DNA from: Halalkalicoccus sp. CG83
Lineage (GTDB): Archaea > Halobacteriota > Halobacteria > Halobacteriales > Halalkalicoccaceae
Direction of reading: 5' to 3'
DNA length: 64,000 nt
NCBI RefSeq assembly: GCF_037081715.1
Contig: NZ_JAZDDH010000001.1
Location: 372,001-436,000 of the forward strand
The position numbers and the translations under genes are program-made. Of this stretch, positions 16,509-20,236 are shown in pieces (the first letter of the stretch is position 1; the number at the start of each line of letters is the position of its first letter). The notes beneath the pieces are model-generated. The model searched no databases. It was not told the origin of the DNA and saw nothing but the letters and a program-made list of their open reading frames with translations.

Positions 16509-17720
16509 GTGGCGACGCGACTCGGCCGGCTCGACCGGTTCGTCCGGTTCGACGCGCTCGTCGTCACCGCGGCGATCTGGTTTCTCGCGAAACTGCTCCG
16601 ATACGCGTTTCCTCCGCTGTTCGAGCCGCTGCGGGCGACCTACGGCGTCTCGAACGCCGCCATCGGAAGCGCCTTCACCGGGTTCATGCTCGTCTACGCC
16701 GCGATGCAGTTCCCCAGTGGCGTGCTCGCCGACCGCTTCGGCTCGGTTCGGGTGATCGTCGCGGGCGCACTCGTCGCCGCAGGCGGCGCGCTCGCGCTGA
16801 TCGTCGAGGCCTCCTTTCCCGTGCTGGTCTTGGCGATGCTCGTGATCGGCGCGGGCACCGGCGCACACAAGACCGTCGCCGTGCGCCTGCTCTCGGGGAT
16901 CTATCCCGCCCGGACGGGCCGGGCGCTCGGCGCGCTCGATACGTTCGGCACGTTCGGCGGCGTCGTCGCGCCGATCGCCGTCGTCGCCTTCGTCGGAACG
17001 AGAGTCGGTTGGCGAGGGTTCTTTCTCGCGGCCGGCCTCGTCGGCATCGCGCTCGTGGGGCTGTTCGTCCGGTGGGTACCGCGGCGGGTCCCCGACGGTC
17101 GGTCCGGCGCCGACGATGGCTCGTCCCCGGCCGAAACTCGCGAGTATCTCGCGCCCTTCCGCGACCGGCGCTTCGCCCTGTTCGTCCTCGTGACCGTCGC
17201 CTTCTCCTTCGCCTACAACGGCGTCGTCGCCTTCCTGCCGCTCTACCTGGTCGAGGAGGCGGGACTCTCGGGCGCGGTCGCCGGTCTGCTCTACAGCGCG
17301 CTGTTCGCCGCGAGCCTCGTCCAGCTGGCGACCGGGGAGCTGAGCGATCACGTCGGTCGGCTCCCCGTACTCGCCGCGAGCGTCGTCCTCGGGCTGGTCG
17401 GGGCCGTGCTGCTCGCGTCGTCCTCCTCCCCGGTCGCACTCGGAGTCGCCGTCGTCGTCTTCGGACTGGGGTATCACGGCTTTCGACCCGTCCGGGGGGC
17501 GTATCTGGTGGCGATCATCCCCGAGGCGGTCGTCGGCGGCACCCTCGGTAGCGTACGGACGGTCCACATGGCAGCCGGGGCGCTCGCGCCCGCGGCCGTC
17601 GGACTGCTCGCCGATCTCGCCGGCTTCCGCGTCGCCTTCGGAACGCTCGCGGGCTCGGTCGGGGCGTCGCTCCTCTGTACCGTCGTGCTGATCGTCTCAC
17701 ATCGACACGACGATCAGTGA
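16509..17720 (+). CDS. MFS transporter
   Basis: 403 residues with about 12 hydrophobic helices. The N-terminal half shows the MFS loop 2-3 pattern [14 protein letters not shown], and the second half repeats it as [14 protein letters not shown]. The GTG start follows the srp54 stop by one base, so it is likely co-transcribed. Substrate cannot be predicted. The 3' end overlaps the end of the convergent yjbQ remnant by a few bases. Confidence 0.85.
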
Positions 17721-18139
17721 ACGATGACCTCGACGTCGCGCCGGCGGGGACCGTCACACTCGACGAAGAGGACCGACTGCCAGGTTCCGAGCGCGAGTTC
17801 GCCGTCCTCGACCGGCACCGTCACGCTCTCGCCGAGCAGCATCGCTCGGAGGTGTGAGTCCGCGTTCTGCGGCTACGCCGCAGAGCTCGTCGAACGGTGT
17901 TCGACGCTGTTATCGTCGATCTCGTCGTGATCCCATCCCTCGTCGGCGATCAGGTCGTCCACGGCGCGCTCGACGTCGCGAAGCAGCCGCGCCTCCGCCT
18001 CGTTCACGACGACGCCGGCGGTCGTGTGGCGGACGAAGACCGTACAGACGCCCTCGGCGTCAGCGGGCAGCACGTCGGCCACGCGGTCGGTCACGTCCCG
18101 AACGTCGGTTCGAGCCTCGGTCTCGACGGTGAACGTTAT
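17714..18139 (-). pseudogene. YjbQ family gene disrupted by a palindromic insert and a lost start codon
   Basis: The whole YjbQ (secondary thiamine-phosphate synthase, UPF0047) sequence is readable in one frame: TFTVETEARTDVRDVTDRV, the FVRHTTAGVVVNE motif, [14 protein letters not shown] and [20 protein letters not shown]. Two defects are visible. The codon where ATG is expected is ATA (18139-18137), and no other start codon is near. A 45-base in-frame insert at 17864-17908, between DDN and ADSH, carries a TAG at 17873-17875. Removing it gives 126 residues, close to the usual length. The upstream part stays open into the UPF0201 gene. It lies downstream of UPF0200 and UPF0201 on the same strand. 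Confidence 0.8.
17864..17908. repeat. 45-base palindromic insert with two perfect hairpins
   Basis: The insert holds TCTGCGGC-TAC-GCCGCAGA (17866-17884) and CGTCGAAC-GGT-GTTCGACG (17888-17906), both 8-base perfect stems with 3-base loops. On the yjbQ strand AAC is found at both borders, which could be a 3-base target duplication. The stop codon lies in the first hairpin. The length, a multiple of three, resembles the in-gene palindromic elements known from Rickettsia, but no family is known to me here. Confidence 0.65.
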
Positions 18140-19721: not shown

Positions 19722-19796
19722 GGGCACGTAGCTCAGTCCGGATAGAGCGTCGGACTTCTAATCCGACGGTCGTGGGTTCGAATCCCATCGTGCCCG
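19722..19796 (+). tRNA. tRNA-Arg (anticodon TCT)
   Basis: A full cloverleaf: acceptor GGGCACG pairs with CGTGCCC, D stem GCTC/GAGC, anticodon stem TCGGA/TCCGA around CTTCTAA (anticodon TCT, reads AGA), T stem GTGGG/CCCAT with loop TTCGAAT. 75 bases, discriminator G, CCA not encoded. Copies of its 3' end follow downstream. Confidence 0.96.
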
Positions 19797-20236
19797 CTCG
19801 CTCACTCCGTTCACTCGCGGGCACTCTTGAGTCCCCCCTCGCTTCGCTCGCGGGACTCCCATCGTGCCCGTGTACCTTTTTACTCGTCGGGTGTCCTCGC
19901 GCGATCGCGCTGCGGGCACCGCTCCGAGCAAAAAGCTACGCCAAAAAGGCCGCTCGCTCGCTGCGTTCGCTTGCGGAACCCCCCTCGTGCCCGCATACCT
20001 TTTTCCTCGTCGGGTGCGCTCGTTCGACTCGCGAACCGCTCCGGCACAAATCTGCACCATCACCAGAACGCGGAGCGTTCTGGTTAGCAGCCAGAAACCG
20101 CAAGCTTCTGGCGACAAAAAAGGCCACTCGTTCACTCCGGGAGAGCCGGCTCGGCCATGCTTCCATTGCTTCGATCGCGGGACTCCCATCGGACGGCGAC
20201 CGCGCCGCTTTTGATCCGCCCCGCGAGACTCCGACC
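19797..20236. repeat. Degenerate repeats of the tRNA-Arg 3' end and flanks
   Basis: The region between tRNA-Arg and pyrE has no gene. The tRNA end CCCATCGTGCCCG (19784-19796) recurs as ACTCCCATCGTGCCCG (19855-19870), CCCCTCGTGCCCG (19981-19993) and CTCCCATCGG (20183-20192). Two copies are followed by a module reading TACCTTTTT(A/C)CTCGTCGGGTG (about 19872 and 19995). CTCGCTC..T.CGTTC.CT.GCGG and AAAAAGGCC blocks also recur. This looks like tandem remnants of attachment sites from elements that integrated into the tRNA gene. No integrase is present. Confidence 0.65.
20063..20112. repeat. Pair of adjacent hairpins
   Basis: CCAGAACGC-GGA-GCGTTCTGG (20063-20083) is a perfect 9-base stem with a 3-base loop. 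It is followed at once by GCCAGAA...TTCTGGC (20090-20112). Both share CCAGAA/TTCTGG arms. The layout of two short hairpins side by side resembles the insert in yjbQ, though the stem sequences differ. Confidence 0.7.

Follow-up and report, generated by a model that had tools for sequence, protein, structure and literature searches.

A 45-bp double-hairpin insert in a haloarchaeal yjbQ gene as a probable copy of an order-wide element family

An interrupted yjbQ gene and its insert

The window, meaning the whole 64,000-nucleotide stretch of Halalkalicoccus sp. CG83 DNA analysed here, carries an interrupted yjbQ (UPF0047) gene on its minus strand at positions 17714-18139. Read from 18139 to 17714, the frame begins with ITFTVETEARTD and ends with VEVIVH at the original stop codon, TGA (17716-17714). 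Where the start codon would be expected (18139-18137), the gene indeed has ATA, as a sequence-only reading of this DNA had claimed, and no in-frame ATG, GTG or TTG was found near it. An open reading frame for an MFS-like transporter on the plus strand (16509-17720) overlaps the gene tail to tail by seven bases (17714-17720).

The same reading described a 45-base in-frame insert dividing yjbQ, and this description proved correct. The upstream part (17910-18139, minus strand; ITFTVETEARTD...DEIDDN) matches positions 1-66 of the 117-position Pfam profile UPF0047/YjbQ (PF01894; E 1.6e-12), and the downstream part (17717-17864, minus strand; ADSHLRAM...VEVIVH) matches positions 68-115 (E 1.9e-17) with all strongly conserved positions kept, the two parts thus meeting at profile positions 66/68. 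Translation across the junction gives ...WDHDEIDDN[SVEHRSTSSAA*PQN]ADSHLRAM..., where brackets enclose the insert and the asterisk marks a stop. Apart from this stop and the ATA codon, no decay was seen: the gene shows no deviation at any of the 39 columns conserved at 90% or more.

The insert, CAGCGTCGAACACCGTTCGACGAGCTCTGCGGCGTAGCCGCAGAA, lies on the minus strand at 17865-17909 and consists largely of two perfect hairpins, each with an 8-bp stem and a 3-nt loop, as already proposed. Hairpin 1 (CGTCGAAC ACC GTTCGACG) occupies 17888-17906 and hairpin 2 (TCTGCGGC GTA GCCGCAGA) occupies 17866-17884, separated by the linker AGC (17885-17887). In its second loop, GTA and the following G create the in-frame TAG that had been noted (17875-17873), which is the 12th codon past the AAC at the upstream border. 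The predicted fold of the insert is two separate closed hairpins, both within its borders. Tandem hairpins of at least 8 bp occur as exactly one pair in the whole window and not at all in its dinucleotide shuffles. The borders first given, 17864-17908, delimit the same insert equally well; the structure model described below shifts them by one base, with a C at both ends. Likewise, the AAC reported on both sides of the insert is present, although it reflects in part an ambiguity of placement, since an element of the form C...AA was inserted into AA|C.

Elsewhere in the window, just downstream of a tRNA-Arg gene (19722-19797), positions 19790-20170 hold two imperfect units of about 100 bp that are 77% identical, with no convincing gene; a hairpin with a 10-bp stem and a 3-nt loop (ACCAGAACGCGGAGCGTTCTGGT) lies at 20062-20084.

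The double-hairpin family in haloarchaeal genomes

To place the insert in context, yjbQ genes of relatives were located by protein search, a method blind to nucleic acid structure. Three of them, in genomes G275, G018 and G136, are divided at the same residue as the window gene. G275, which belongs to another family, carries a 45-nt insert (CAGCGTTGAGCGAAGCTCAACGAGCTTTGCGGTGTAACCGCAAAA) at exactly the window's site; the two inserts show three differences in loop 1, and the remainder form four compensated stem pairs, two per hairpin. The stop is retained in G275, as TAA vs TAG in the window. AAC codons flank the insert in both genes, and AAC and AAT flank that of G018 (Halorutilus salinus), a 51-nt double hairpin of other sequence that lacks a stop. 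The insert of G136 is 66 nt long with an open frame. Counting G302, discussed below, five yjbQ genes bear inserts. They do not group together and require five changes on a poorly resolved tree; repeated insertion is thus likelier than common descent, as far as so weakly resolved a tree can indicate. Among the 125 genomes of family f8, only G275 has a yjbQ insert, and when the genome_contigs collection was scanned for inserts at this yjbQ site, Halorutilus salinus was the sole haloarchaeon found. The other 12 matches of that scan have no such element, some being chance matches and others different bacterial UPF0047-like proteins. The search of the genome and of relatives suggested by the first reading had a divided outcome: no further copy of the insert's own subfamily was found in this genome or in viral contigs, but related copies were found, one of them at the yjbQ site of G275.

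A search with the second hairpin, allowing up to three mismatches, returned matches roughly at chance level because the copies differ in sequence; only a structure model revealed the family. A tandem-hairpin scan of the collected loci found further copies in the RsmB/F methyltransferase gene of G175, elsewhere in the yjbQ gene of G302 and in other stretches of G302. The model, CM R1, was built from seven gap-free aligned copies; the window copy, itself one of the seven, scores 64.3 bits (E 8e-12 in the whole genome). On whole genomes, CM R1 separated copies clearly from background; the genome of the window has nine at E<1e-3, and further copies were found in G302 and G175. The matches are mostly 46, 49 or 52 columns long, corresponding to 45-bp inserts plus multiples of three. 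In an order-wide survey in which 15 candidates were scored per genome, at least 298 of 392 genomes and at least 80 of 95 genera held one or more copies at E<=1e-3. When genomes were drawn from across the phylum, the 17 that scored positive were all members of the order and none of the 124 outgroup genomes did so, a result to which differences in base composition may contribute. Rfam gave no match for ten loci with noncoding or doubtful copies. We found no earlier report of this family in the openly licensed literature, although one may exist elsewhere; the family thus appears to be undescribed so far.

The architecture is fixed as CNN-hairpin(8/3/8)-RGC-hairpin(8/3/8)-A, at sizes of 45, 48 or 51 bp. 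The consensus of 66 copies of 45 bp reads C(A/G)N CG NNG RRC-loop-GYY CNN CG-RGC-ARTCGGAC-GCA-GTCCGAYG A, and nearly every 45-bp copy has AGC or GGC as its linker. GNA loops (GAA, GCA or GTA), which are stable in DNA, occur in many copies. Insertion takes place between A and C (A before in 59 of 75 copies, C after in 72 of 75), most often in GAC or AAC codons. No clear target duplication was detected: the shared flank averages 4.04 vs 3.09 for shuffled pairs, a slight excess that derives partly from tandem copies. The window copy has the family's two 8-bp hairpins, 3-nt loops, RGC linker and 45-bp length, and it is likewise inserted between A and C, in the sense orientation and with its first base at codon position 3.

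The stems covary. The seed alignment scores 0.732, vs 0.209 when shuffled and 0.04-0.13 for slid structures. Among 47 unique in-frame 45-mers, pair 7-19, which joins third codon positions, occurs as GC (21), CG (13), TA (10) and AT (1), and third-position pair 10-16 varies between AT and GC. Covariation at paired third positions would not arise from peptide selection alone; the hairpins are either needed as nucleic acid or kept perfect through a templated correction process. Most of the other copies were found by a structure model that favours paired stems, which makes the structure-blind pair of the window and G275 the cleanest evidence for covariation.

Reading frame, stop codons and the fate of yjbQ

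When the flanks of 78 copies were classed by codon usage, 58 copies proved to be flanked on both sides by sequence coding in a single sense frame, their first base falling at codon position 3, and five more lay antisense but in frame. The peptide added is a linker of about 15 amino acids, rich in Ser (27%) and Asp (10%). Only two of the 58 sense copies contain a stop in the gene frame, and both are in yjbQ (TAG in the window, TAA in G275), so that the open frame usual for copies in genes, though not a defining trait of the family, is absent at 17875-17873. Another sense frame contains stops in 32 of the 58. The third is open in all copies, with no stop in any of the 58, and yet no copy uses it, a bias suggestive of selection for a hydrophilic peptide.

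The host genes, usually working ones and some of them for essential enzymes, encode OMP decarboxylase (GIIFAGEYGSPSSRTPSGNAGED), an asparaginase-family enzyme, prephenate dehydratase, an aminotransferase and RsmB/F; a ValRS gene holds two inserts and a MetRS gene an antisense copy. In histidine kinases, the N-box holds between one and four copies in tandem, as FRN[SVEHGSTSSRTESGD]n. In-frame tandem arrays of two to four copies with a period of about 45 bp were seen at L310 (G013), L318 (G050), L320 (G040) and L252 (G302); most such arrays lie in histidine-kinase N-boxes (FRN[SVEHGSTS...]n), where the element resembles its target sequence. The same asparaginase-family gene is occupied at the same place in two families (L237 in G000, L183 in G302), and there the upstream flank (GGATCACGAC) recurs in the element's 3' arm, which looks as though part of the hairpin had been copied from the target.

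Copies whose second loop would create a stop have a different distribution. The stop-making GTA-loop pattern gave 64 matches vs none for a reversed control, and among 29 contexts none was sense and in frame; almost all were noncoding and one was antisense. Many of these copies sit within IS200/IS605-type elements, either in a terminal palindrome or in the 3' region; such elements were identified from the end sequence TGACATCCTCCCC and an adjacent TnpB-like reading frame. Because copies within genes are open and stop-makers lie outside them, ribosomes evidently read the inserts and selection removes the stops; read in this way, the window copy should terminate YjbQ after about 90 codons.

Noncoding settings recur in other ways. 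In five genomes (L280, L286, L288, L289 and L291), copies occupy one fixed place in the 3' region of an IS605/TnpB element, probably the omega-RNA region, and two of these five elements also hold other double hairpins of different sequence. A noncoding repeat (tcgaagattctctgg ... ctcgcgcgtgc), present several times per genome, contains double-hairpin copies at L306-L309 (G013) and L313-L317 (G050).

These distributions bear on the two readings offered at the outset, a haloarchaeal mini-element or an RNA-structured recoding site. The former is strongly supported by an order-wide dispersed family with conserved length, orientation and phase and covarying hairpins. The latter fares poorly: 56 of the 58 sense in-frame copies are open and both exceptions are yjbQ, stop-making loops otherwise occur only outside genes or antisense, and the yjbQ genes of some other species carry different kinds of lesion. 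Indeed, the gene is frameshifted in G135 and G220, and in G275 an extra base shifts the frame near the end; in G302 it has a TGA plus two antisense inserts; and in G329 (L063 1484-1876) an otherwise intact gene without an insert has a TAG at about codon 21. Congeners lacked yjbQ in every case searched.

We therefore regard it as very probable that the insert belongs to a haloarchaeal double-hairpin family spread across the order and that the dispensable gene yjbQ has recently lost its function in the window. Judged from sequence, the window gene would most likely be a fresh null allele rather than a recoding site, and the family is apparently mobile, as its dispersal and the empty sites in orthologues of other species suggest. 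The copies may be propagated at the DNA level by a process dependent on both small hairpins. One plausible route runs through single-stranded DNA, as for IS200/IS605 transposons, since the terminal palindromes of the latter harbour copies of the element; transposons and elements also share hosts, and both insert without target duplication. Insertions would then survive selection only where the host protein can accommodate the added peptide. In the window copy, the loop GTA appears to have replaced the usual GCA, giving TAG where the family commonly has CAG (25 copies), and YjbQ would end after about 90 codons on account of that codon. The changes from CAG to TAG and from ATG to ATA could each be a single transition.

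The retention of all 39 conserved columns implies either that the loss of yjbQ is very recent or that its product is still made. Should stop-bearing copies be skipped or removed during expression, the mobile element would be silent at the protein level, a proposal we consider very unlikely in general. One form of it is translational bypassing of the byp or T4 gene 60 type, whereby ribosomes would take off at the first AAC, skip 42-45 nt and land on the second to give full YjbQ. The matched codons around the insert in the window and G275 (AAC/AAT in G018), the in-frame stop that both of the former carry inside a structured insert and the fully conserved downstream protein in the window all fit this idea, and byp of Magnusiomyces mitochondria and T4 gene 60 resemble the locus in having a structured in-gene insert, a stop and matching flanking codons. 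However, the window stop is the 12th codon, whereas that of T4 gene 60 directly follows the take-off codon, and the G275 gene has its additional frameshift. Moreover, the family is otherwise translated: inserts in other genes keep an open frame and stop-makers are absent from genes, which would be needless if ribosomes skipped them. Sec, Pyl and -1 frameshifting are the only demonstrated cases given in a review of recoding in archaea (PMC8211752), and bypassing here seems highly improbable.

Removal at the RNA level, as a very small intron of the bulge-helix-bulge type or otherwise, would account for a precise, in-frame, structured insert in a gene that is otherwise intact. Yet the predicted fold lacks the two 3-nt bulges, 4 bp apart at exon-intron borders, that characterise such introns, and both hairpins lie inside the insert with no bulges at its borders. 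The in-frame length, the single phase and the lack of stops elsewhere, in turn, indicate that the copies are read as codons, leaving RNA removal with next to no likelihood. Read-through or redefinition of the stop, by which YjbQ would be made with a 15-residue linker, is in keeping with the conservation of both sides of the gene and with a family linker that is, as a rule, translated and tolerated; on the other side, the gene also lacks its usual start codon, and the stop is TAG in the window vs TAA at the same codon in G275, such that no single suppressor accounts for both. We consider read-through exceedingly doubtful and favour the null-allele reading throughout.

Comparison with known systems

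To our knowledge, in-frame translated palindromic elements are known mainly in Rickettsia and its relatives. The present family occurs in most genera of an archaeal order, including in genes for tRNA synthetases and biosynthetic enzymes, and such tiny DNA elements would routinely add disordered linkers to archaeal proteins. It offers a natural test of how hairpins are maintained, through third-position covariation, while obeying a reading frame, and 15-residue inserts such as AVEHGSTSxRTxSDD become recognisable in annotation as element copies. The closest known kinds are the Rickettsia palindromic elements (RPE) and the SMRs of Haloquadratum. RPE are short palindromes that interrupt many unrelated protein genes without breaking the frame and occur at noncoding loci too, those in genes being translated as an extra peptide. 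The haloarchaeal family likewise consists, as a family, of palindromic inserts dispersed in frame among unrelated protein genes; it differs in being archaeal and order-wide and in measuring 45-51 bp, with two separate 8-bp hairpins, rather than about 100-150 bp. Because of these differences in architecture and length, it is set apart by description and not filed as RPE.

Double-hairpin elements of fungal and algal mitochondria are very short, dispersed and built as a side-by-side pair of hairpins. Their build is similar as far as such descriptions extend, but they are organellar. REP sequences of the GTAG and CGTC superfamilies are also short palindromic repeats, some of them intragenic, and those of the CGTC type have comparable stems of 8-9 bp, with loops of 4-5 nt and dimers that are mostly head-to-head (PMC3733652). 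In contrast, the haloarchaeal copies have 3-nt loops and two unlike hairpins in fixed order, and lie mostly inside ORFs.

Ends of IS200/IS605 elements and their PATE derivatives also have palindromes near their termini and insert without target duplication, which raises the alternative that the element is no family of its own but a degenerate terminal-only PATE formed from fused IS605-type transposon ends. Its two palindromes, the lack of a long target duplication, its occurrence within IS605 elements, at terminal palindromes and in 3' regions, and the 52-bp terminal-only PATE described in Haloquadratum (PMC3119063) speak for such an origin. On the other hand, the two hairpins of one copy are unlike each other, the conserved 4-6 bp 5' target of IS605-derived PATEs is absent, with only an A at -1 (59 of 75) and a C at +1, and copies intrude into IS605 ends rather than forming them. 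We thus consider a PATE origin unlikely and retain the assignment to a separate family.

SMR-A elements of Haloquadratum walsbyi, in the portions of the account drawn on here, are about 110 bp long with prominent terminal inverted repeats, are commonly more than 95% alike within a type, and insert into near-terminal palindromes of IS605 elements and PATEs without target duplication and by an unknown mechanism (PMC3119063). The present family shares with SMR-A and SMR-B its haloarchaeal hosts, the lack of a transposase and of target duplication, and insertion into near-terminal IS605/PATE palindromes, the last a likeness at the level of the family only, as the window copy sits in a gene. It differs from SMR-A in its 45-bp size, its divergence, the lack of terminal inverted repeats and its location mostly in ORFs; those same portions describe no ORF inserts for SMR-A or SMR-B (PMC3119063). 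The family may nevertheless offer a way into the problem of how SMRs and other haloarchaeal repeats that lack a transposase are moved. In sum, it behaves like RPE in genes and like SMRs in transposon ends, and it is set apart from SMR-A by size and terminal repeats.
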